Shown here: positions 2,689 through 13,878 of the stretch, piece after piece
Layout of the letters: every line of letters begins with the position of its first letter
Numbering within the stretch: the stretch's first letter is position 1
NCBI RefSeq assembly: GCF_014202035.1
Contig: NZ_JACHFR010000004.1
Span: 151,740-215,739 of the forward strand
From: Treponema rectale
GTDB taxonomy: Bacteria; Spirochaetota; Spirochaetia; Treponematales; Treponemataceae
DNA length: 64,000 nt
Reading direction: 5' to 3'
Position numbers and translations under genes: made by a program
The notes under the pieces: generated by a model
What the model saw: only the letters and a program-made list of their open reading frames with translations
What the model was told of the DNA's origin: nothing
Databases searched by the model: none

Positions 2689-3846
2689 ATGCCGGAACTT
2701 TCAGACAGGACAGCGGGATTTACGGACAGTGTTATCCGCCGTATGACCCGTATTTCCAATCAATATAATGCAGTAAATCTCTCTCAGGGATTCCCTGATT
2801 TTGAACCGCCTGAAAAAATTCTTCAGAGACTTGCAGAAGTTACACGAGAAGATTTTCATCAGTATGCGGTTACCTGGGGGGCTCAGAATTTTAGAGAAGC
2901 CCTTGCAAAAAAAATTACGCATTTCTCCGGGGTTGATGTTGATCCTAATGCCGAACTGGTAGTTACCTGCGGAAGTACGGAAGCAATGATGGCTGCCATG
3001 ATGAGCGTTACAAATCCCGGGGATAAGGTAATTGTATTTTCTCCATTTTATGAAAACTACGGAGCTGATACTATTTTAAGCGGTGCACAGCCGATATATG
3101 TTCCTCTTATTCCGCCGGAATTTAATTTTGATGCTGAGGTTCTGGAAGATGCATTCAGGCAGAAACCGAAGGCTATTATAGTCTGCAATCCTTCTAATCC
3201 TTGTGGTAAAGTTTTTACCAGGGATGAACTGCAGATTATTGCTGACCTTGCAAAAAAATATGACGCCTTTGTCATTACGGATGAAGTTTATGAACACATT
3301 CTTTACAAGCCGAATGTTCATACTTACATGGCATCTTTACCGGGAATGAAAGACCGGACCATAACCTGTAATTCCCTGTCCAAGACCTATTCCATTACGG
3401 GATGGCGCCTTGGTTATACTCAGGCAAATCCTGAAGTTACAGAACGCATAAAAAAGGTTCATGATTTTCTGACGGTAGGAGCGGCTGCTCCTTTACAGGA
3501 AGCTGCGGTTGCCGGACTGAATTTTGGTGATGATTATTACGAAAGCCTTCAGCAGAAATATACTGAAAAGCGGAGTTTATTTTTAAAGGGGCTTGATGAC
3601 ATTGGGTTGATTCATACTGAGCCGCAGGGAGCATACTATGTTCTTATTGATATAAGTGAATTCGGTTATGAATCTGATCTTGAGTTTGCAGAAGATTTAG
3701 CGAGAAAAGTCGGGGTAGGGGCTGTTCCTGGTTCCAGTTTCTTTAAGGAAAAAGAAAACCGCTATGTAAGGCTTCACTTTGCAAAAAAAGAAGAGACTCT
3801 TGATGAGGCACTTAATCGTCTGTCTCTGATTCGGAAGAAGATTTAG
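2689..3846 (+). CDS. PLP-dependent class I/II aminotransferase (KAT/YbdL/C-S lyase-like)
   Basis: A 385-residue cytoplasmic fold-type I PLP enzyme. It has NLSQGFPDFEPP near residue 26, YAVTWGAQNFREAL (substrate-arm region), NPSNPCGKVFT (PLP-ring Asn), ITDEVYEHI (PLP pyridine-N Asp) and the catalytic lysine in NSLSKTYSITGWRLGY near residue 235; the C-terminal carboxylate-binding Arg is in RYVRLHFA. The order resembles kynurenine/glutamine transaminase K and methionine aminotransferase YbdL, enzymes that can also act as cysteine-conjugate beta-lyases. The start at 2689 has AAAGGAG at 2675-2681 and lies 2 bases after the preceding stop, so the ORF's earlier ATG at 2653 is not used. Its 3' end overlaps the oppositely oriented YolD-like gene by 35 bases. 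Confidence 0.9.
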   Translation: MPELSDRTAGFTDSVIRRMTRISNQYNAVNLSQGFPDFEPPEKILQRLAEVTREDFHQYAVTWGAQNFREALAKKITHFSGVDVDPNAELVVTCGSTEAMMAAMMSVTNPGDKVIVFSPFYENYGADTILSGAQPIYVPLIPPEFNFDAEVLEDAFRQKPKAIIVCNPSNPCGKVFTRDELQIIADLAKKYDAFVITDEVYEHILYKPNVHTYMASLPGMKDRTITCNSLSKTYSITGWRLGYTQANPEVTERIKKVHDFLTVGAAAPLQEAAVAGLNFGDDYYESLQQKYTEKRSLFLKGLDDIGLIHTEPQGAYYVLIDISEFGYESDLEFAEDLARKVGVGAVPGSSFFKEKENRYVRLHFAKKEETLDEALNRLSLIRKKI

Positions 3847-4009
3847 TTGTTCCGTTATGTGACTGTGCAGTTTTTTCAATCAGTTCTTCAAAACCTTTTA
3901 AGGCTGCAAAGGGCATGAAAATTTTTGCACGGTCACTCAGAGGCATTTTTTCTTTTAGTGACGGCTGCGGCCACTGTGTGTTTATTATATCGTCATAACG
4001 ACCTTTCAT
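3812..4009 (-). CDS. YolD-like small protein, partner of Y-family DNA polymerase
   Basis: A 65-residue protein with the opening YDDIIN, then MPLSDRAKIFMPFAALKGFEELIEKTA. This matches the pattern YDDIIN...M(S)xxDRAxxFxPFAALxGxE found in small YolD-like proteins of Clostridia, which are usually encoded directly after a UvrX/ImuY-type Y-family polymerase and are thought to modulate it. The polymerase is indeed on the same strand, but 8.5 kb upstream at 12514-13878; the recombinase element at 4035-12476 lies between. If the element is removed, the YolD start would be about 60 bases from the polymerase stop. The last 35 bases overlap the end of the aminotransferase gene. The ribosome site is weak (AAGGGA about 11 bases before the ATG). 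Confidence 0.72.
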   Translation of the reverse strand: MKGRYDDIINTQWPQPSLKEKMPLSDRAKIFMPFAALKGFEELIEKTAQSHNGTTKSSSESETDD

Positions 4010-4034
4010 GCTCGGTGTTATCCCTTCTTTTTAT

Positions 4035-4099
4035 AAATCCAAACTTTTCAAACTTACCCCATATATTACATATAATTAAACAGTTGAAAGTTTGGATTT
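4035..4099. repeat. Left end of the recombinase-trio element: 65-bp inverted-repeat module
   Basis: AAATCCAAACTTT (4035-4047) is perfectly inverted as AAAGTTTGGATTT (4087-4099), with an AT-rich centre. The right end of the element has the same arms at exactly the same 65-bp overall span. A tyrosine-recombinase binding site (two arms flanking a crossover region) or a nested terminal repeat are both compatible. It lies 25 bases upstream of the YolD-like start. Confidence 0.8.
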
Positions 4100-4143
4100 T
4101 GTTTTTATTATCTTTACCATAACAAGTTCTTCGCAAAAAGAAC

Positions 4144-5343
4144 TTATTCCAAATATCCGCCGTAGCACCAGCCTGTGGTTCCTGATTTTATTTCTTTACC
4201 GTCTTTATCTTTCGCGCCAGAAAGAACCTCTACCTGTACCCAGTTGCTGTTTATGCCGTCGATTGTTTCGGCTTTGCCAAGTTGCAGGATTTTGACTTTT
4301 GAGCCTTTTTGCATGGTTGTGATTACACTGCTTGATGTTGCTTCCTGAGAACGAAGGCGAAGATTGTCGTTGCAAGTCATTACTTTGCTTACAGCTACGT
4401 TTGTTGATGAAGCTGAATCCAGATTATCAAAATTGATGTGTTCTTTATTCCACTGCTCGCGCCACTGTGAATCCCAGGTATTTTCGATTCGCCAAAGGGT
4501 GTGTGTGTCTGTTGTCCAGTTTATAGTCAGGAAATACCAGTCGCCGTTTGGATGATAGGTGATGGATTCTTCGGTTTCATTCTCAGGAATGGTGTAATTT
4601 AACACCTCACTTTCTTTTCTGTTAAAAACCCTAATAGTTTTACGCTTGTTATTTAGAGTAATTACATAATCTGTAGTTTCATAAGCTGTTGCATTCCATC
4701 TGCATCTGACTCCATCAATGTATAAATCATTATCTGAATCTAAAGTCAGATGAGGAGCATAGTTTCCATTATTAAGAAGTTTACTTGTTTCTTCTGCATT
4801 ACGGAAATTTTTCTGATTTTGCTTTTCATCTAGTGAGGGATGAACTATGCAGTGTATCTTATTATTATGATCTTGAAAAAACAAAATATCTGTTTCTTCA
4901 TCATAATATGAAAGTTGAGAAGAAACCTGGCTATTAGCATTCACCACATATTTTCTCTTGCCGGAAGACCGATCAATTGCAATGCTGGCGGCATCAGTCC
5001 ATTTATAAAAGAAATAGTTATTTGAGACAGCATATAATCCAAATAATTCTGAAGCGTAGTATATATCTGAAAAATCATAAGAATAAGATTTAGCTATTTG
5101 GAATGTTTTTGAATCTAGTTCATAAAGAATATTTTTATCATCATTGTAAATAAAAATAGAACCATTTTTATCACAAAACATGCGATTCCCAGTTTTACCA
5201 TTATAAGCATCCAGTTCATAATTATGAACAATTTTGACTTCTTTAGTATTCGAAAACTGTTTTACAGCTTTGAGTTCAAGGTTCTGACACCATAAAAATG
5301 TGCTTATGAAAAGTAAAGTTATAAATATGAATGTCTTTTTCAT
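4144..5343 (-). CDS. Secreted protein with C-terminal bacterial SH3 domain
   Basis: A 399-residue exported protein with a signal peptide (residues 1-19, hydrophobic ITLLFISTFLWC then QN). The middle (about 50-310) is a repetitive beta-rich region resembling a propeller-like sensor (FCDKNGSIFIYNDDKNILYEL style). The C-terminal 80 residues form an SH3-like domain beginning near NLRLRSQEATSSSVITTM, of the type that binds cell wall or protein ligands. The last 49 residues are identical at 46 positions to those of the gene at 6515-7702, a recent duplication or conversion. It is the last gene of the cargo operon of the recombinase element; a GGAG 13 to 10 bases before ATG serves as ribosome site. 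Function unknown. Confidence 0.78.
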   Translation of the reverse strand: MKKTFIFITLLFISTFLWCQNLELKAVKQFSNTKEVKIVHNYELDAYNGKTGNRMFCDKNGSIFIYNDDKNILYELDSKTFQIAKSYSYDFSDIYYASELFGLYAVSNNYFFYKWTDAASIAIDRSSGKRKYVVNANSQVSSQLSYYDEETDILFFQDHNNKIHCIVHPSLDEKQNQKNFRNAEETSKLLNNGNYAPHLTLDSDNDLYIDGVRCRWNATAYETTDYVITLNNKRKTIRVFNRKESEVLNYTIPENETEESITYHPNGDWYFLTINWTTDTHTLWRIENTWDSQWREQWNKEHINFDNLDSASSTNVAVSKVMTCNDNLRLRSQEATSSSVITTMQKGSKVKILQLGKAETIDGINSNWVQVEVLSGAKDKDGKEIKSGTTGWCYGGYLE

Positions 5344-5368
5344 TTACTGTATCTCCAAATATAATTTA

Positions 5369-6505
5369 CTATTTCTCTAGCTTTTGTATCATTTCAACAA
5401 GTTTCTGGCGGTGAGCTGGAAGTGTAATTTCGCCGGATGATTTGCCTTCATCTGTGTACCAGACTTGCTTATCGAAATACTTTGATAAATCTGCGCTCTT
5501 AAAATGAACGCCGTAAATTGCAAAGATTGTATTTCTCAAAAGGCGGAGTTCGGCTTTGCTCAAGGTTGGAAGAACCTTGTTTACGTACTTGCCGTAAGAG
5601 TCGTCTGTGTAACCGTTTATTGCCATTGCGTAAAAATCTGGATCACCCCAGGTACGGCGGATGCGGAAAACTTCGGTGTACTCTTTGCCGGTAATGTAAT
5701 AGTAGATGTTACCGCCAAAGCCGACGTACCAGCTAAAAGAATAGTCTTGTCCACTTTTCCGAATTTCTGAATATAAGTTCAGATTTTTTAAATAAAAAAT
5801 ATTATCATCATTTAAATAACATCCAAGGACGTTACCAAGACTTCCATAATTTTCAGAAAAATATCTATATCCTTGGAGATCATATTGCTGCAATGTATTG
5901 TGTTCTTTATAGTATGTGTTTCCCCAAATCAAAACATTGTTTCTAATAAAATCATTATAAAGACTCAGCTCTGCAGCCTTTTTTTTGCTCTGCTCATATT
6001 TTTCGGGATCATATTGCTTCAGATATGCCATTGCCTCTTCTTCTGAATAAATACGTCCAATTGAATCTATGGCACCGCCTAAAAAATAAACTATATAACC
6101 GCTATCTTTTTTGAGTATAAAGCTTATACCAGGATTTGTATCACTGATGTATTTATAAGGTGTACTATTTATTGAATACTCAATAGAATCCGAATAAACT
6201 CCCCAATAATCATTTCCTAATACCAAGAGTAATGGTGCGTGTTCACTTAAAAACGGTTTTTCTTCTTTTGAAATTGCTTTAGTTTCAAGATTGATTGTTA
6301 CTATAGTTCCGGGCAAAGGATCCTGTACAACCAAGAGATTGTTTACTTCATTAAAATATATTCCTAGTGGAAAATGCCCCATTCCACCTCCGGGATATCT
6401 TTCATACTTTACATCTTCTAAGACTGCAATTTTTTCAACTTCCTGCGCAAAGCAGAAAAGACTCATTGTGAAAATAATTGCTGTAAATAAAATTGTTCTT
6501 TTCAT
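5369..6505 (-). CDS. Secreted YARHG-domain protein
   Basis: A 378-residue exported protein: signal peptide in residues 1-21 (ILFTAIIFTMSLFCFAQ), a beta-rich middle similar in feel to the two flanking proteins, and a C-terminal YARHG-type domain (AELRLLRNTIFAIYGVHFKS, then YFDKQVWYT). YARHG domains occur in secreted proteins and are thought to act outside the cytoplasm, without a known activity here. I use the ATG at 6505 (AAGG 7 bases before it) rather than the TTG at 6511. It begins 9 bases after the stop of the upstream cargo gene, so it is probably co-translated with it. Confidence 0.78.
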   Translation of the reverse strand: MKRTILFTAIIFTMSLFCFAQEVEKIAVLEDVKYERYPGGGMGHFPLGIYFNEVNNLLVVQDPLPGTIVTINLETKAISKEEKPFLSEHAPLLLVLGNDYWGVYSDSIEYSINSTPYKYISDTNPGISFILKKDSGYIVYFLGGAIDSIGRIYSEEEAMAYLKQYDPEKYEQSKKKAAELSLYNDFIRNNVLIWGNTYYKEHNTLQQYDLQGYRYFSENYGSLGNVLGCYLNDDNIFYLKNLNLYSEIRKSGQDYSFSWYVGFGGNIYYYITGKEYTEVFRIRRTWGDPDFYAMAINGYTDDSYGKYVNKVLPTLSKAELRLLRNTIFAIYGVHFKSADLSKYFDKQVWYTDEGKSSGEITLPAHRQKLVEMIQKLEK

Positions 6506-6514
6506 ATTCAAACC

Positions 6515-6664
6515 TTATTCCAAATATCCGCCGTAGCACCAGCCTGTTGTGCCTGTTTTTATTTCTTTACCGTCTTTGTCTTTTGCGTCAGAAAGAACTT
6601 CTACCTGAACCCAGTTACTGTTTATGCCATCGATTGTTTCTGCTTTACCAAGTTTCAGGATTTT
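6515..6664 (-). repeat. DNA duplicate of the SH3 segment at 4144-4293
   Basis: The 3' ends of the two SH3 genes share very high nucleotide identity. From the stop codon the first 33 bases are the same at 4144-4176 and 6515-6547, and similarity continues for about 150 bases before dropping sharply. A 5' region with little similarity next to a near-identical 3' region suggests gene conversion or domain transfer inside the cargo operon. Confidence 0.8.
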
Positions 6665-7702
6665 GACCATTGTGCCTTTAGCCATTGTTGTAATGATTTT
6701 ACTTGATGTTATTTCTTCCGCTCGCAATCTAAGATTATCAACTGTAGTAAATATTTTACCAATTTGAATGTTTTCTTGTAATGAATTGCTTGGATTCCAT
6801 TTCTGCTTAGCTTCTGAAGACCAGTTGTTTTCGATGCAATAAAGCAATAGTTCTTTCTTTTCGTTTGAATAGTCTAAATAAAATAAATCTCCTGTTTTAG
6901 AAAGTGCTGGGAAATAAGTCCTGCTGATTGAATATTCATCTTCTGTAAATTTATAACTGGTTAATAATTTTGCGTTTGAGTTTTGAACAAGAAATCTTCT
7001 TCGGTTGCTGACATAGTAGGAATTGCCTGCTAAATCTTCTCCGATGAAAAAAGAAGAATTCTTTGGAATTATATATTCAACAACATTATTGATAACTAAT
7101 TTATTTTCATTATTTATTCTGATATCTGAAATCTTTGCTTTTGATAAATAATTGTTTATCTGCTCATTATTCATTGTACTGTTATTTTCTTTTAACAGAT
7201 ATATACCGTCCTTTGCATAATGAAACAACAAATCATTTTTCTCATCATAAATGAAACTATATTTAACAACATCACCAGGTAATGATATCTCCCATTTTAC
7301 ATTTCCATTCCAATCAATGAATATTATTGATTCATTTTCATTATATAAAAGAAGACCAACATTATATGCTTTGATTAAATTAGGAAGACAAAGAAGATTT
7401 TTATTTACTGGAATAAATCGTTCACATTCAAATTTTGCATTGAATACATATATTTTTAATGCTATCTGATCAAAGATAATCAAGTTATTATTTTCATCAA
7501 AACAAATTGCAGATGGACCTTCCCAATAGTACTGATCCCCTACTGCTAATCCATCAGGGATATTATATTTATCAGAAACTCTGGAAATGCCTTTTTCAAG
7601 CTTGCCTGAATCTAAATTTTTAATTAGCTTCTGTTGTATTTCTGTTTGTGCAAAAACACTTGAAGTCAAAAACATCAAAATAAAAATAAATATTTTTCTC
7701 AT
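6515..7702 (-). CDS. Secreted protein with C-terminal bacterial SH3 domain (paralogue of 4144-5343)
   Basis: A 395-residue exported protein with a signal peptide (IFIFILMFLTSSVFAQ, residues 4-19), a beta-rich N-terminal sensor-like region (LIIFDQIALKIYVFN, SIIFIDWNGNVKWE), and a C-terminal SH3 domain from about residue 315 (DNLRLRAEEITSSKIITTM) to the end. The ATG at 7702 has AGGAG at good spacing and lies one base from the stop of the AlbA_2 regulator, so the two are tightly coupled. Its last 33 coding bases are identical to those of the gene at 4144. Function unknown; the context says cargo of the recombinase element. Confidence 0.78.
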   Translation of the reverse strand: MRKIFIFILMFLTSSVFAQTEIQQKLIKNLDSGKLEKGISRVSDKYNIPDGLAVGDQYYWEGPSAICFDENNNLIIFDQIALKIYVFNAKFECERFIPVNKNLLCLPNLIKAYNVGLLLYNENESIIFIDWNGNVKWEISLPGDVVKYSFIYDEKNDLLFHYAKDGIYLLKENNSTMNNEQINNYLSKAKISDIRINNENKLVINNVVEYIIPKNSSFFIGEDLAGNSYYVSNRRRFLVQNSNAKLLTSYKFTEDEYSISRTYFPALSKTGDLFYLDYSNEKKELLLYCIENNWSSEAKQKWNPSNSLQENIQIGKIFTTVDNLRLRAEEITSSKIITTMAKGTMVKILKLGKAETIDGINSNWVQVEVLSDAKDKDGKEIKTGTTGWCYGGYLE

Positions 7703-7703
7703 T

Positions 7704-9113
7704 TTATTCTCCTGCATTTAATATTTCCCAGAAACCAGTTTTATTGGAACCTGAGCGTTTTATATAACCTTTCTGTTTGAGAACTGCAATTGCATTATCA
7801 ACGGTAGTCTTTCCAACTCCAACCAGTTGTGCAATTTGAGGTTTTGTAATATTTGGATTATTTCGAATTTCTGAAAAAATCTTGGACTGGGTATTATTAA
7901 GCTGTGAATTATCACCCGTTTTATTACCCACTTTATCACCCATATTGTTAATCCAATTAAAAGGGATTTTTACAACAATAGAGTTCTCGTGAAATTCGTA
8001 AGCACTTTTTCCGTATGTGCTGGTAATTTTAGGAACCCCGCGTCCAGTTTTTTCACTGATATGAAGTTGTAAGAATATTTCTGAAAGTTTCTTATTTACA
8101 GGAACAGATTCACCTCTAAAAAATCCTTCAAGCGTCTGTTCTGGTGGTAGTATTCCCCGAGAAAGGATTTCAATTTTATCTGAGAAAACGGTAATCATCG
8201 GTTCATTTTCTGTTACCCATTTATTATGAACAAACGCATTTATAACAGCTTCCCTGAATGCATCATTTTCAAACAAAGGAACATCCTTTCGCTCAACAAT
8301 TCTATCTTTCTCATCTGCCTGGAGAATATTCAAGACATCTCCATAACGAAGAACTTCATCAAGCGTATACAAAATACACTGGTAACCAAATTCGCGGATA
8401 GAATACATTTTATCTGCTTTTGTCTTTCCTGAGAAAATGGCAACCCTTAACGGAATCTGAGAATTATCAGAAAGCAACTGTGCAAGAATGTTATATTTTC
8501 CATCTTCTGTAAGAAGATTAAGGTTCTTTTTGAAATTATCAGGATTAAGTTTCAGACCTTTTGCTCCATAATATATAAAAAGTTTCTCAAAAGTTAAATC
8601 CTGATACTTAGATGGTGTGTTTTCAATTGTAGGAAAACCATGTCGAAGGACATCAAATAAATAAGATTCCTTTTCCGGATACTTTCTGAGGCTTTCTTTA
8701 CTTGAGCCAATTCGTATAAAACGTTCGTTATCAAAACTTGTAGGAACTGTTCTTGCAGCTGGAATAGTAAGAACAACAACCTTTTTACCCTCATAATTAG
8801 TTTCTTCAAAATTGAAATTTAAATCTGGATAAATCTGTCGTGCAAGAAAATGTTTTAAAGGCTCATTTTTAATATCCATGTTGCAGTTGAAATTCGTACC
8901 TGTAACATCATGAGTTTCATTATGAATTCCCCAGACAAAATAAGCATTTTTTCGACCTTCAATTGCAGCACTGTTTGAGAGAGCAGAAATATACTGTCCA
9001 AGTTGAGTCTGATCAAACCAGTTTTCTTTAAACTCAAACCATTCACGTTCAGTATCATAAGAACGGAGTTCATCTAATAATTCATGTAATTGATTATTCA
9101 CTTTATCACCCAT
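7704..9113 (-). CDS. Schlafen/AlbA_2-domain, HATPase_c_4-type regulator with C-terminal winged helix
   Basis: A 469-residue cytoplasmic protein. The N-terminal AlbA_2 (Schlafen-type) domain is seen as REWFEFKENW, then YISALSNSAAIEGRKNAYFVWGI-like sequence (residues 18-60). The middle holds the ATPase-like fold of this family (EAVINAFVHNKW, then KTGRGVPKI near 375). A short repetitive linker (MGDKVGNKTGDN) leads to a C-terminal winged helix (KPQIAQLVGVGKTTVDNAIAVL). Such proteins are annotated as RecG-related helicases or transcriptional regulators; the role is not established. I choose the ATG at 9113, since sequence before it has no AlbA_2 match. It leads the four-gene cargo operon directly downstream of the recombinase trio. 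Base sequence around the start repeats the linker (see separate entry). Confidence 0.8.
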   Translation of the reverse strand: MGDKVNNQLHELLDELRSYDTEREWFEFKENWFDQTQLGQYISALSNSAAIEGRKNAYFVWGIHNETHDVTGTNFNCNMDIKNEPLKHFLARQIYPDLNFNFEETNYEGKKVVVLTIPAARTVPTSFDNERFIRIGSSKESLRKYPEKESYLFDVLRHGFPTIENTPSKYQDLTFEKLFIYYGAKGLKLNPDNFKKNLNLLTEDGKYNILAQLLSDNSQIPLRVAIFSGKTKADKMYSIREFGYQCILYTLDEVLRYGDVLNILQADEKDRIVERKDVPLFENDAFREAVINAFVHNKWVTENEPMITVFSDKIEILSRGILPPEQTLEGFFRGESVPVNKKLSEIFLQLHISEKTGRGVPKITSTYGKSAYEFHENSIVVKIPFNWINNMGDKVGNKTGDNSQLNNTQSKIFSEIRNNPNITKPQIAQLVGVGKTTVDNAIAVLKQKGYIKRSGSNKTGFWEILNAGE

Positions 9114-9165
9114 GATGATTATATCACACATGGGTAATAAAGTAAGTAATATGGGTGATATTTTG
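9099..9165 (-). promoter_or_regulatory. Repeat-rich control region around the AlbA_2 gene start
   Basis: Read on the minus strand, TATCACCCAT (9154-9163 area) faces ATGGGTGATA at the start codon, with TTACCCATGTGTGATATAAT between them. The 15-mer ATGGGTGATAAAGTG covers the start codon (9099-9113) and recurs in the gene's own interdomain linker (7929-7943). The inverted and direct copies could be an operator for autoregulation; this is inference from symmetry only. TATAAT ends 7 bases before the ATG, which is too close for a normal leader. Confidence 0.45.
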
Positions 9166-9174
9166 CCACAAAAA

Positions 9175-10209
9175 TTATCTTGGTAATCCAAGAAATTCAG
9201 ATAATGAACCATCATCCATTTTCCATTTTTTAGGAAGCGATGTCTCCTTTTCATCTTCAAGTGTTTCCAGAGCTTTTGCTTTTTCATCTATGGTAACATC
9301 TAGATATTTCATAGTCGTTTCAACACTTTCATGTCCAAGCAGGAATTTTATCTGAACAATATTCATTCCATCTTCAAGCCAATGTGTGGCTTTTGCATGT
9401 CGTAATTGATGAGAATGAAGATTTATTGGTATTTCCAGACTTTTTGCACTACCTGCTACTGCGTATTTCTTTATACGTTTTGCTATGGCTGGCTGAGTTA
9501 ATTTCTCCTTCCGATTTCCCACAGGCGAGAAAAATAAGTAATCTTCTGGATTTGGATTTTTACCATGAACGGATTCAATATACCCATTCAAGTTGCTAAC
9601 CGTTCTTGGCATCAGAAAAGCAGTTCTTATTTTCTCACCTTTTCCAAATAAATTCATATAAGGATGAGCTCCCTCTAAGAATAAGTCTTTTATCTTTAAA
9701 GATAAAATTTCATTAATTCGCGCTGCAGAACTATACATCAACATTAAAAGCGTATAATCTCTTCGGCCTATCTTAGTTCTCAAATCAGGTTGATTCAATA
9801 ATTCCTGAATTCCTTTTTTTGAAACACCTGTTACTTTCTTTTTAACAGTTTTTAATCTGTGAATATTTCTTGACTCTTCATACAAATACATAAGTTTTAT
9901 ATCCTTAAAACCAAGATACTTCAAAAAACCTCTGAATGTACTTATACGATTGTTACAGGTATCTGGAGAACAATTGCGTTCATTTTTTAACCAGAGTATC
10001 CATTTTTCTATATATGTTCTTTCAAAAGCTTTTCTTGATAGATTTGAAGAAGTGATACCTTCCTTTTCTAAAAATTTAACATATAAAACCAAAGTATCTT
10101 CATAAGATTTCAGAGTATCTTTTGAACGGCTTAAAAATGCAGGTGCATAATTGTAAAGATAATCTGATATATATTTCGAAAATTTTATAGCTTCCGCATT
10201 ATTCTTCAT
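9175..10209 (-). CDS. Tyrosine recombinase, third of the trio
   Basis: A 344-residue site-specific recombinase. N-terminal SAM-like core-binding domain (residues 10-110, TLKSYEDTLVLYVKFLEKEG) and C-terminal catalytic domain. Catalytic set is complete: Arg in YSSAARINEIL, the beta-strand region LFGKGEKIRTAFL with the Lys, HQLRHAKATH, LLGHESVETTMKYL with the nucleophile Tyr. It overlaps the end of the second recombinase by 11 bases and has AGGTG before its ATG. It probably acts with the two others on the element ends. The order large-medium-medium matches my memory of RitA-RitB-RitC. Confidence 0.9.
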   Translation of the reverse strand: MKNNAEAIKFSKYISDYLYNYAPAFLSRSKDTLKSYEDTLVLYVKFLEKEGITSSNLSRKAFERTYIEKWILWLKNERNCSPDTCNNRISTFRGFLKYLGFKDIKLMYLYEESRNIHRLKTVKKKVTGVSKKGIQELLNQPDLRTKIGRRDYTLLMLMYSSAARINEILSLKIKDLFLEGAHPYMNLFGKGEKIRTAFLMPRTVSNLNGYIESVHGKNPNPEDYLFFSPVGNRKEKLTQPAIAKRIKKYAVAGSAKSLEIPINLHSHQLRHAKATHWLEDGMNIVQIKFLLGHESVETTMKYLDVTIDEKAKALETLEDEKETSLPKKWKMDDGSLSEFLGLPR

Positions 10210-11155
10210 AATTCACCTCTTTTATTATTTCATTCAAATCAGATTCTGTTTTATCTTTTATAGTTTCACTAAGACGCGGGACTATCGAGTAATAATAGAG
10301 TGTAGATACTAACTTTTTATGTCCCATAGATTTAGACAAGAAAAACAATTTATCATTGAATTCGAATGAATCAGTTTCCCAACTATTTATATTAGTTGTT
10401 GCATAGTTGTGCCGCAAATCATAAGGCACTGCAGATGTTTTATTAGCTCTGTACCAGCACTCCCTAAAACATCTGCTAAGCCAGCTTTTATCAAAAAAAG
10501 AACCATTAGATTTTTCAAAGAAATATGTTCGATTTTTTTTCAATTTATCCATTGCAAAATCATATTTCTTTAACATATCAACGGTAGAGGAATGAAGCGC
10601 AACATAATGTTTATCAGAGCCTTTCCCTTTTCGAATTTTAAGAATGCCGTTCTCAAAATCGACATCTTCTCTTTTTAATAATCTGGCCTCTGTTGTTCGA
10701 ATTCCTGAACTATATAGCAATCGGAAAAGAACCGGAACAACAAGGTTCTTATAATTGGAAAATCTTCGACCATCTTTACAAATATGATCACATTCAAAAA
10801 AGAAAGCCTTCAATTCTTCTTCTGTGAATGAATGTGGTATATATTTAGATTTCTCAGACTTCATGAGCACCGGCAGTTCAATACATGCCAAGCCCCTTTG
10901 ATTAAGAAATTTTATAAAAGCTCTAACAACTTTTATTCTTGTATTTCTAGATCCATTCAATTCAGAAGATCTTTTTTGACACCAAGAATCAATCATTTCT
11001 TGTGTTAACTCTTTCTGATCTGCATAGTTTTCATAACAAAATTTTTCAAATCGTCTTAAAGCTTGTATATATACACTATTAATACCACTAGAAACATTTT
11101 TATAATTGAGAAAAAGTTCTATCTCCGTTCCTAAGTTCTTTTCTATCTCAGTCAT
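10199..11155 (-). CDS. Tyrosine recombinase, second of the trio
   Basis: A 318-residue phage-integrase-family protein. Core-binding domain in residues 5-95; catalytic domain with Arg in LLYSSGIRTTEARLL, Lys region KIRKGKGSDKHYVAL, YDLRHNYATT, and SMGHKKLVSTLYYYS with candidate nucleophile Tyr. I use the ATG at 11155, which has AGGAGG 9 bases upstream and overlaps the first recombinase by 8 bases, rather than the alternative at 11176. Overlapping genes in all three pairs suggest a fixed ratio of the three proteins. Confidence 0.9.
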   Translation of the reverse strand: MTEIEKNLGTEIELFLNYKNVSSGINSVYIQALRRFEKFCYENYADQKELTQEMIDSWCQKRSSELNGSRNTRIKVVRAFIKFLNQRGLACIELPVLMKSEKSKYIPHSFTEEELKAFFFECDHICKDGRRFSNYKNLVVPVLFRLLYSSGIRTTEARLLKREDVDFENGILKIRKGKGSDKHYVALHSSTVDMLKKYDFAMDKLKKNRTYFFEKSNGSFFDKSWLSRCFRECWYRANKTSAVPYDLRHNYATTNINSWETDSFEFNDKLFFLSKSMGHKKLVSTLYYYSIVPRLSETIKDKTESDLNEIIKEVNYEE

Positions 11156-12377
11156 TTGTAAATACCTCCTCTGCAATCGGAAAGTTTTCTAAGCTAAGTG
11201 CAAATGGTCTTAAATGTTCTATATCTGCTTCAAGATATGGCTCTAAGGAAGTTGGTTCGACATATCCCAAAGTTGCACTTATTACAGGTTGAGAAAATCC
11301 ACCTGATGCCAATGCAGTTGCAATATGGTGTCTGAAAATATGCGTTCCTCGTCGTTCACCTTTATTCTGCCTAAGCCCAGTTATTTTAAATAACCTATTT
11401 GAAATGCTATAAATACCATTGCTATTGAGGGCTTCATATGGAGAAAACGACTTAAGAAAAAGAAATTGACTCTGTTTTTCTGGCCTCTCAAATTTGAGAT
11501 AATCGTATATTGAATTTCCAACAATTGGCAAAAGAGGTAATTCAACCAGATTTAAGGTTTTTGACTGGTATAAAGATATTTTATCTTTTTGCCAGTCTAT
11601 ATTTTCCAATTTAAGATTAGCTACATCACAAGCCCGTAGTCCATAGTAAAGCAAAATATTCAGGATAGCCTTATCTCGTAATGAAAAATGATTGTCCATC
11701 AGCTCATGCTTTATTACTTCACATTCTTTTACTGTTAGAAACTGATAAAGCGTTCGTATTTTCCTTATTTCTGGTACATAGTTCATAATTCTTTGCACAT
11801 CAGAATCTTCAAGATTTACCTGTAATGCTGTAGTTATGGCTTTTTTATAAGAGTGACTTTTATTTAGTTGATTATTCTCATCAAGAAAAAAAGCTTGCAC
11901 ATCTTTTTCTGTCACCTTACCTAATGTTGCAAATCCTTTTTGCTGAAAAAACTTAAGAAAACATGCAGCTTTTCTTACACAGGCACTTATAGTAGTTTCA
12001 CTATGACCTTTATTAGTTGCATAGGAAATGTAGTTATCAACCAATGATTTAAAATAGGGATTTAAGCATAAGTAAGCACTTTTGACAGGCTGCAAAGGAT
12101 TTCTTTTATTATAAGATGGACTTTTATTATTTTCTTCGAAGTCGCTGAAAGTGCGATACATCGAATGAAGTTTATATTCCACATTAACAGAAGGTCTTTT
12201 TCCTTCGATTCGATATTTGCATAAATCAATATAAGATGCAAAATCCTTGTCTTTTCCATGTTTTTGAATCCAATGAATTTCAAAAATATACTTTTTGATA
12301 GTCGACTCTGCATATTGCTCATCTTTCATTGCTTTGAACAAAACATCCGATGTCGCTATTAATTTTTCGATATTCAT
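11148..12377 (-). CDS. Tyrosine recombinase, first of the trio
   Basis: A 409-residue recombinase with a long N-terminal part and a core-binding region near residues 105-190. The catalytic domain has Arg in LLYYGLRACDVANL, HIFRHHIATAL, and the box LGYVEPTSLEPYL. In the last box the usual histidine of LGH is tyrosine, a deviation from the consensus; the nucleophile Tyr is kept. The ATG at 12377 has AAGGAGG at ideal distance, better than the TTG at 12419 that lies inside the terminal repeat. Transcription probably starts within the right end of the element. Confidence 0.88.
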   Translation of the reverse strand: MNIEKLIATSDVLFKAMKDEQYAESTIKKYIFEIHWIQKHGKDKDFASYIDLCKYRIEGKRPSVNVEYKLHSMYRTFSDFEENNKSPSYNKRNPLQPVKSAYLCLNPYFKSLVDNYISYATNKGHSETTISACVRKAACFLKFFQQKGFATLGKVTEKDVQAFFLDENNQLNKSHSYKKAITTALQVNLEDSDVQRIMNYVPEIRKIRTLYQFLTVKECEVIKHELMDNHFSLRDKAILNILLYYGLRACDVANLKLENIDWQKDKISLYQSKTLNLVELPLLPIVGNSIYDYLKFERPEKQSQFLFLKSFSPYEALNSNGIYSISNRLFKITGLRQNKGERRGTHIFRHHIATALASGGFSQPVISATLGYVEPTSLEPYLEADIEHLRPFALSLENFPIAEEVFTND

Positions 12378-12405
12378 AACAATATCCTCCTTGTCTTGAA
12401 TATCG

Positions 12406-12435
12406 AAAATAAAATCCAAACTTTTATATTGTCAA
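12406..12435 (-). promoter_or_regulatory. Predicted promoter of the recombinase trio, inside the right terminal repeat
   Basis: On the minus strand TTGACA (12435-12430) is followed after 18 bases by TATTTT (12411-12406). The 18-base spacer contains the terminal-repeat arm. Recombinases bound to the arm would cover the promoter, so autorepression is plausible (inference). Confidence 0.6.
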
Positions 12436-12476
12436 ATCTCTATATAATAATAAAATATGCTAAAGAGTTTGGATTT
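12412..12476. repeat. Right end of the recombinase-trio element: 65-bp inverted-repeat module
   Basis: AAATCCAAACT (12412-12422) is inverted as AGTTTGGATTT (12466-12476). The total span of 65 bp and the arm sequence match the left end. A further imperfect copy, AAATCCAAAAGTTTT, lies just outside at 12500-12514 next to the polymerase stop. Confidence 0.8.
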
Positions 12477-12513
12477 CTTTTTAGTTAAGATAAATTCAGA
12501 AATCCAAAAGTTT

Positions 12514-13878
12514 TCATTTTTTGTGACCTCCTATCTGCCGGTTCCTTTCTATAGTTGTGGCACCTTCTTCAAAATCACTTCCTTTAAGTATTGTGTTTTT
12601 ACCGAACTTGTTCTGAAGTTTAAGCATGGTTTCCTGAAGTGAGCGTTCTTTTTTCTGTTCATGAACTGTGGTGAATAGATCTGCCTGTTCTTCTTTTTGA
12701 GGAATAACTTTTTCTGCCGTAAGGTTCAGTCTTTTTGCAAGAAGAGTTTTGTCGATTATCCTGTCAAAAACAGTTAGTACTGCGTCGGTTATTTTACTCA
12801 TGGAAGAAGTTTCTGCACTTAGCCTTATGCTTCCGTGGTCAGACTTTGGAACTTCACGTCCGTAACGGTCGATTTCAAAATCTCCTTTATAATTTTCAAG
12901 AGGAGAACTTCTGTCATAAGAAATTATCAGGGTAAAAGTTGCAGAAGCAAGCTGTTTTGTAACCAGTTCCTGAGAAAGGAATTCTGCCATTTCTTTTACA
13001 ACGATTCTTGTTTTTTCCCATGTGTAGGGACATGACAGAACCTGTCCTGAGGTTATGCTTTTATAACGGCGTTTATAATTTTTTATGTGTTTTATTGTAC
13101 AGGGTTCATATCCCCAGGCATGATCTATTAGAATTTCTGCATCGATTCCAAAGAGTTTGTAGAGGGACTGCGGTGCATCCAGGGAACGGCGTGCAATATC
13201 TCCCATTGTATGAATTCCGATTTTCAGGAGACGGTTTGCAATTCCATTTCCGATTCTCCAGAAGTCAGTTATCGGGGTATGATTCCAGAGCGTTCTTCTG
13301 TATTCATCAACTGACAGGGTAGCAATGCGTACTCCGTTTTCATCAGCCTCAACATGTTTTGCAACAATATCCATTGCGATTTTGCAGAGGAACAGATTTG
13401 GTGCAATGCCTGCTGTAGCCGTAATACCGGTTTTATTCAGTATTTCCTGAATGATGTTTTTTGTAAGAGTCTTTGCATCTGTTTTGTATAGGTTCAAGTA
13501 GCCGGTTGCATCAATGAATACTTCATCAATGCTGTACACGTGAATGTCTTCATGGCTGAAATAGTTTAAGTATATTGAATAAATTCTTGCTGAATATTCC
13601 ATGTAGAGTGCCATGCGGGGCGGGGCAATTATGTATTCAAGTTTTTTTCCTGTCCTTTGCTCAACTTCTTTTGATTTCTGTATGACTTCAAAAAGCCTGC
13701 TTCTGCCGGAAAGTCCGTATGCTTTAAGGGAAGGGGTTACGGCAAGACAAATTGTTTTTTCCGTGCGTGATTCATCTGCAACAACAAGATTAGTTGTCAG
13801 CGGGTTGAGATTACGCTCAACACATTCAACAGAGGCATAAAAAGATTTTAAGTCGATTGCAATATATGTCCGTTCCAT
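12514..13878 (-). CDS. Y-family DNA polymerase (UvrX/ImuY-like translesion polymerase)
   Basis: A 454-residue translesion polymerase. The catalytic carboxylates are visible in YIAIDLKSFYASVE (residues 5-18) and VYSIDEVFIDA (residues 114-124). The thumb helix-hairpin-helix is near GIGNGIANRLLKIGIHTMGDIA-like sequence (around 210-230), and the little-finger region follows. The C-terminus ends in the EGATTIERNRQIGGHKK tail typical of the UvrX-like group of Clostridia, whose gene is normally followed by a small YolD-like gene. That partner is here at 3812-4009, on the far side of the recombinase element. It is divergently arranged with the GNAT gene. I see no obvious LexA-type operator upstream. 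Confidence 0.93.
   Translation of the reverse strand: MERTYIAIDLKSFYASVECVERNLNPLTTNLVVADESRTEKTICLAVTPSLKAYGLSGRSRLFEVIQKSKEVEQRTGKKLEYIIAPPRMALYMEYSARIYSIYLNYFSHEDIHVYSIDEVFIDATGYLNLYKTDAKTLTKNIIQEILNKTGITATAGIAPNLFLCKIAMDIVAKHVEADENGVRIATLSVDEYRRTLWNHTPITDFWRIGNGIANRLLKIGIHTMGDIARRSLDAPQSLYKLFGIDAEILIDHAWGYEPCTIKHIKNYKRRYKSITSGQVLSCPYTWEKTRIVVKEMAEFLSQELVTKQLASATFTLIISYDRSSPLENYKGDFEIDRYGREVPKSDHGSIRLSAETSSMSKITDAVLTVFDRIIDKTLLAKRLNLTAEKVIPQKEEQADLFTTVHEQKKERSLQETMLKLQNKFGKNTILKGSDFEEGATTIERNRQIGGHKK

Follow-up and report, generated by a model that had tools for sequence, protein, structure and literature searches.

A cargo-bearing recombinase-in-trio element between a Y-family DNA polymerase gene and yolD in Treponema rectale, likely placed by its own recombinases

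The locus described here raises the question of why a Y-family DNA polymerase gene and a yolD-like gene, which lie side by side in most of the Treponema sequences sampled, are separated in Treponema rectale by some 8.5 kb of other DNA, and of what brought that DNA to rest at precisely this point. The locus lies in a window, by which is meant the whole stretch of 64,000 nt that was analyzed (assembly GCF_014202035.1, contig NZ_JACHFR010000004.1, positions 151,740-215,739); features are given below in window coordinates, and all of them are on the minus strand. The reading favoured in the present work, to which a probability of roughly 0.8 is assigned, is that a cargo-bearing recombinase-in-trio (RIT) element lies across the stop codon of the polymerase gene and the start of yolD, and that it was likely placed there by its own three recombinases through site-specific integration with a predicted 6-bp overlap.

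On the evidence of its sequence, the interval is a RIT element with cargo. It holds three overlapping tyrosine recombinase genes, ritA (11148..12377, 409 residues), ritB (10199..11155, 318 residues) and ritC (9175..10209, 344 residues), with Pfam matches at 1.9e-19 (Phage_integrase), 2.9e-15 and 1.3e-25, respectively; ritA and ritB share 8 bp, and ritB and ritC share 11 bp, which is slightly above the four to eight bp published for RIT genes (PMC3414803, cited, like the other papers below, from part of its text). The three proteins find their best matches on the pHG1 RIT class by class, with identities of 28% for RitA, 28% for RitB and 29% for RitC, and they match the proteins of a Priestia plasmid RIT with identities of 34%, 40% and 48%. 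The order A-B-C recurs in 76 of 80 RIT loci from public genomes, several of which come from one genome, and the remaining four are truncated by the locus boundary. A scan of genome contigs with RitA alone gave no match; an alignment query did find loci. The RH...Y motif of RIT recombinases was scored as present in all three proteins from their alignments: RitC visibly has the whole catalytic set (Arg, Lys, HxxR, His and Tyr), a Tyr replaces the first His of HxxR in RitB, and 17 of the 18 rows of the RitA alignment (A1) retain all six catalytic positions. What sets the interval apart is its length. Compact RITs end straight after ritC at about 3.5 kb, and 23 of the 24 loci at which both ends could be called (72 were tried) measure 3.40-3.46 kb; the interval is filed as a RIT variant because about 5 kb of cargo, beginning with the gene of an SLFN protein, separates ritC from the end.

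The ends of the element were set by comparison with the copies in five other genomes of the genus (G076, G141, G148, G058 and G091), which gives a length of 8502 bp (4018..12519) with an outer palindrome included, or 8476 bp (4018-12493) without the palindrome and the 6-mer inside it. On the yolD side, the terminal repeat region (4018..4100, with the end ...AAAAGTTTGGATTTATAAAAAGAAGGGATAA) starts with GGGATAA at 4018, 8 bp from the yolD ATG, the intervening bases being an outer 6-bp spacer, CACCGA (4012..4017), and then GC. On the polymerase side, the terminal repeat region (12412..12493), of the form TTATCTTAAC...AAATCCAAACTC...AAAGTTTGGATTT, has its TTATC edge at 12493, and the next 26 bp, which recur with the element, consist of an inner 6-bp spacer, CTGAAT (12494..12499), equal in size to the gap found in compact RITs, and a degenerate 20-bp palindrome, AAATGAAAACTTTTGGATTT (12500..12519), taken as the equivalent of AAATCCAAACGTTTGGATTT in compact RITs; the outer 6-bp spacer on this side is CACAAA (12520..12525). 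A 7-bp spacer was tried and replaced by the 6-bp spacer, which is the one compact RITs show. The terminal inverted repeats with an associated palindrome that are typical of RITs are therefore found here with a palindrome that is degenerate in Treponema. The ends cannot be ascribed to chance because identical ends recur in other genomes: the two end patterns were found in 8 and 9 of the 200 genus genomes, and a backwards-read control gave none among the matches listed. The AAATCCAAACTTTT arms at 4035 and 12412 and the two 65-bp inverted modules built on them (4035-4099 and 12412-12476) are present as an earlier, preliminary description of the locus had reported, but its limits of 4025..12483 fall short of the true ends at 4018 and 12493 (12519 with the palindrome), and the polymerase stop codon (12514-12516), which it had placed 38 bases from the element, lies inside the element end, within the palindrome. 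A 10-codon open reading frame (ORF), MKTFGFLxLS*, at the polymerase-side end was considered as a real peptide and rejected; it is better read as palindrome and terminal repeat because the DNA layout recurs in compact RITs. A promoter candidate found by eye, TTGACA-N17-TTATTT at 12406-12435, overlaps the arm motif ahead of ritA, which suggests self-regulation; its TTGACA is not kept in G076.

The polymerase gene that flanks the element (12514..13878) encodes a UvrX-like enzyme of the Y family (IMS, 3.9e-28), predicted to act in lesion bypass, with a conserved tail, IGGHxx*, and the yolD-like gene on the other side (3812..4009) keeps its start codon beside the element. The comparison with relatives drew on 92 polymerase regions (30 loci and 62 further matches), a sample which is not random and from which some partial or weak matches were left unfetched; 88 regions have an IGGH tail, three have no such tail and one lacks the 3' end. 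In uninterrupted relatives the polymerase ends in IGGH and two further residues, its stop codon often overlaps the yolD ATG, and the IGGH codons ATA GGA GGN appear by eye to double as the Shine-Dalgarno sequence of yolD. The tail in the window, IGGHKK*, is the same as in the element-free genomes G101 and G009. Among the 88 polymerase 3' ends, yolD follows within 140 bp in 76, the element or its ends are found in seven, and there is no yolD match at that place in five. These counts support an insertion of the element between polymerase and yolD, as the preliminary description had proposed; it had also recognized the UvrX-like polymerase on the right flank, the three overlapping tyrosine recombinase genes, their identity as a RIT trio and some 5 kb of cargo foreign to the compact form, all of which were borne out. 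The YolD-like gene of the left flank has no Pfam or NCBIfam match, but the name yolD is kept because the gene matches, by tblastn, the ORF that immediately follows the polymerase in relatives. Taken as a whole, that description was largely right but understated: the real ends and the palindrome escaped it, as did the repeated occupation of the site, the copies at other loci and those that have no recombinases.

Whether the junction was occupied once or many times can be judged from the genus, of which 200 genomes were searched with the end patterns and the SLFN protein, and 196 with RitA. The genome of the window has one close RitA. Copies or remnants of the element occupy the polymerase/yolD junction in seven genomes (G000, G058, G091, G141, G148, G149 and G189), always at the identical position relative to the IGGH codons, and copies away from the junction are found in four: a full copy at a different locus in G076 (RitA 90%), a right end only in G122, a copy in G013 and a fragment in G171. 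A pattern match in G079 was dropped, there being no other element sequence there. The SLFN proteins of G058, G141, G148 and G149 are 97-99% identical to that of the window, as is an 87-residue SLFN fragment in G091 (99%), while the polymerases of the first four genomes are 60-71% identical to the window's. The simplest reading of these sequences is repeated insertion into one site, and it is likely that the element's own recombinases pick the polymerase/yolD spot. The junction copies are not uniform. G189 matches in its outermost ends only, with other DNA between them and no SLFN gene, and G141 has a 1.35-kb stretch with an opposite-strand open frame of 404 codons between the element and yolD. 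In G189 (L121, L066), unrelated DNA with a ferritin-like ORF, recognized by eye, lies between polymerase and yolD on contigs that do not join.

Three of the junction copies (G141, G148 and G149) have lost their recombinases by different deletions, with deletion joints that differ among them. An alternative account of these copies, compatible with the favoured reading and the likeliest of the alternatives, although improbable, holds that they are passengers moved in trans by RitABC and not decayed residents; G141 keeps both ends, G148 retains its right end together with the palindrome, and the SLFN frame is open in all three (in G141 a stop occurs only upstream of the start used), but the differing joints resemble separate local deletions, G148 has lost the left terminal repeat, and in G149 no right end was seen. 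Because the SLFN frame stays open after the loss of the recombinases, the gene is likely to be useful to the host, and of all the cargo genes it is the strongest candidate for conferring a benefit. Its ratio of nonsynonymous to synonymous substitution rates (dN/dS) is 0.01-0.10 in 15 pairs drawn from six copies, three of them without recombinases; the single available pair gives 0.25 for RitA and 0.09 for RitC, and RitB is absent from the comparison because the pattern missed one copy.

A second alternative, to which a distinctly small probability is given, is that insertion is untargeted and that copies between polymerase and yolD survive because the site is harmless. Four of the 11 genus copies do lie elsewhere, and compact RITs are found in many contexts, but an untargeted element should be scattered, whereas the seven junction copies share one position relative to the IGGH codons, and the outer arm of the element's palindrome resembles, by eye, the right arm of the target. 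For the G076 copy no empty site could be fixed, since the only relative found to share its upstream gene (G001, L113) has a different junction.

A single insertion beside the polymerase, followed by inheritance or exchange of the locus and without any site preference, is very improbable. The polymerases of G000 and G189 are sisters (85% identity), and these two genomes may share one insertion; on the tree of the 88 polymerases, however, the seven carriers need six changes, all six forced by well-supported branches, and the carriers are regarded as scattered because 76 of 500 shuffles were as low (the mean under shuffling was 6.8). Single inheritance of the junction insertion was rejected on this tree, and the near-identity of SLFN proteins in genomes whose polymerases have diverged to 60-71%, together with the full copy at a different locus in G076, argues in the same direction. 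Least probable of all is that the element is a GInt, a Tn554-like element or an integrative mobilizable element (IME) instead of a RIT, for although GInts combine three recombinase-like genes with cargo, gene-end integration and imperfect repeats (PMC5385486), and IME8 integrates inside yolD beside uvrX (PMC13239906), the A, B and C proteins match the RIT classes, all three retain both the R-H pair and the tyrosine, in contrast to GinC, the likely SLFN start follows the ritC stop after only 61 bp, which leaves no space for a further recombination gene, the large recombinase of Tn554 is longer than any of the three, and there is no relaxase match among the seven element proteins.

GInts share with the element three integrase genes, cargo, preferential insertion at the end of a gene of DNA metabolism (ssb), short imperfect repeats and a target that is often spared; they differ in needing a fourth gene, ginD, and in a GinC without some catalytic features (PMC5385486), and they are set apart here by their description and not by a sequence comparison. 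No ginD-type gene follows ritC in the element, whose third integrase, RitC, retains the residues R, K, HxxR, H and Y. IME8 of Lysinibacillus sphaericus shares tyrosine recombinases and an attB in the yolD-uvrX operon, but it is a mobilizable element of about 30 kb with two recombinases and hp3, and its attB is inside yolD, not at the polymerase stop and yolD start (PMC13239906); Pfam and NCBIfam gave no match to relaxase or conjugation genes, the marks of IMEs and of integrative conjugative elements, among the seven element proteins. The SE elements and Tn554 share several tyrosine recombinases, target preference and a 6-bp spacer carried at the junction, but they have no trio in which all members keep the catalytic motif, and Tn554 has one abnormally long recombinase (PMC10214605); with recombinases of 409, 318 and 344 residues, the element does not contain the Tn554 combination of such a protein with a small TnpC. 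The RITs of Cupriavidus metallidurans CH34 and C. necator pHG1 (PMC3414803, PMC2864759) share the overlapping A-B-C trio, homology class by class, inverted terminal repeats and a palindrome near the end; published RITs are about 3,500 bp long with no cargo described in the parts of these papers cited, and differ in this from the 8.5-kb window element, with its cargo and its repeatedly occupied gene junction.

Most compact RITs with readable flanks, that of pHG1 among them, have a perfect or near-perfect palindrome, usually AAATCCAAACGTTTGGATTT, 6 bp (7 in one case) outside one end. With a threshold of at least 9 of 10 pairs over 20 bp, 5 of 17 loci with both flanks readable bear the palindrome on the left, 7 on the right and 1 on both sides, compared with 0 of 219 background stretches; once loci with a common flank are merged, it is present in 11 of 15 (5 left, 5 right, 1 both). 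Most of the loci tried were not callable with this end pattern, the 17 remain after removal by hand of L142, L158 and L183, which were mis-scored because of cut flanks, and they include L172, L178 and L180, which share one flank, and L206, whose right end is unsure (4.5-kb candidate span). Ends proposed by an automatic scan of the 330 bp after ritC for terminal repeats were unreliable at many loci and were left out of the counts. Among the Salegentibacter copies, L172, L178 and L180 carry the palindrome on the right, L177 carries it on the left, and L174 has none. The palindrome lies on opposite sides in L172 and L177, which are in one genome; these two identical RITs are apparently inverted against the same flanks, and appear to be a natural record of recombination at the 6-mers. 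The cleanest copies are those of pHG1, with the layout TAGCGC-palindrome-GCGCTA-[3526 bp]-TAGCGC, and of the Priestia plasmid, with the mirror layout by eye, GTTGAC-[RIT]-GTCAAC-palindrome-GTTGAC; each of these has one 6-mer at both outer positions and its reverse complement at the inner position. In seven tabulated Treponema copies, G013 not among them, the outer 6-mers of the left and right sides agree at the first three bases in every copy and at all six in two, and mispaired controls match in the first three bases in 12 of 42 cases (shuffle p 0.006). The palindrome rule may already be partly known. Other RIT lineages (L181, L184, L198, L203 and L209) have other terminal repeats and, by eye, other palindromes nearby; palindrome and RIT ends may co-evolve. 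One locus of a Priestia megaterium plasmid, L131, has its RIT within the HELTHA-motif coding region of what by eye is a metallopeptidase-like gene.

These layouts suggest a mechanism in which the mobile form would be a circle of the RIT and the 20-bp palindrome. In such a circle RIT and palindrome would meet at two joints, which would form core sites of identical sequence in inverted orientation, reading [GTTTGGATTT]-N6-[TTATCCAAAC] for compact RITs; which flank of the inserted RIT receives the palindrome would depend on the joint used for the crossover. In Treponema the outer arm of the palindrome, AAATGAAAAC, resembles the target, GCATGAAA, so that insertion would leave the polymerase stop codon at its usual place, and the yolD-side end, GAAGGGATAA, would supply a replacement ribosome-binding site for yolD, for which its GAAGGGA may serve. 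Hybrid overlaps must be assumed because the 6-mers agree incompletely; the 6-bp overlap may turn hybrid on integration, as in GInts. Mobility itself is put forward on the strength of copies at different loci. A more general proposal, held tentatively and at somewhat less than even odds, is that RITs move as circles with a travelling palindrome and two such core sites, one of which a Treponema lineage retuned to the overlapping stop and start codons of the translesion-polymerase operon, giving a gene-sparing, cargo-bearing element whose SLFN gene is kept after the recombinases decay.

Several observations weigh against the favoured reading and its mechanism. Neither movement nor a circle has been observed, four of the 11 genus copies are outside the junction, and in three of the seven junction genomes (G058, G091 and G189) the two sides of the element are on separate contigs, as are the ends in G013, one of the four outside, where the 6-mers CATAAA and CTCCCG disagree. 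The left arm of the target has no clear match in the element by eye. The inner 6-mer is the reverse complement of the outer one in none of the five Treponema copies checked and, besides pHG1 and Priestia, in 5 of the 10 tabulated compact copies that bear a palindrome; the outer 6-mers are fully equal in just 4 of 14 tabulated compact copies, and 4 of the 17 two-sided compact loci have no palindrome. The RitA of the window has a Tyr at residue 386 of its 423-residue frame, where 17 of the 18 aligned rows have His, and judged by this residue the protein may be impaired. The case for a benefit of the SLFN gene, finally, consists of dN/dS and open frames alone.

A 2012 survey found that RIT ends do not conform to the sites on which recombinases usually act and that it is difficult to see why three enzymes should be required (PMC3414803), and RIT target specificity and movement are given as "not tested" in Table 1 of a 2023 paper (PMC10214605). 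A palindrome 6 bp outside either end, combined with a 6-bp overlap, provides a concrete and testable model of the attachment site, for which the Treponema family provides a natural target. The element adds a cargo-bearing form to the RITs and is, after IME8, a second type of element found in a repair operon of the yolD-uvrX type; no RIT with cargo or at a polymerase-yolD junction appears in the cited parts of the RIT, GInt, IME8 and Tn554 literature, a scope that excludes the main RIT paper (Ricker et al. 2013). If its recombinases do choose the polymerase/yolD spot, this would be new for RITs.

The cargo comprises four genes whose products were characterized by domain search. The SLFN protein (7704..9113, 469 residues from the likely start) combines SLFN AlbA_2, HATPase_c_4 and winged helix-turn-helix domains; its PADLOC match (PDC-S50, 7.5e-8) covers only 121 of 387 profile positions, and no defence assignment was taken from it. 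Two proteins with a C-terminal SH3_3 domain (6515..7717 and 4144..5343) and one with a C-terminal YARHG domain (5369..6511) have N-termini that resemble signal peptides by eye, and all three are predicted to be secreted. The structure model of the SH3 protein at 4144..5343 is fairly confident (mean pLDDT 80.8), and its N-terminal part weakly resembles beta-propellers, with TM values by query length of 0.18-0.36 among the 50 matches listed; the SH3 proteins belong to a family encountered mostly among metagenome proteins. The 3' parts of the two SH3 genes (4143-4368 and 6514-6739) are 83% identical over 226 bp and the remainder differs, and the SH3/YARHG make-up differs among the copies in G076, G141 and G149, a pattern that looks as if C-terminal modules recombine. 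Repeats of the GGGTGATAA type, found by eye at the start of the SLFN gene (9090-9122) and before its winged-helix part (7920-7952), are possible operator repeats.

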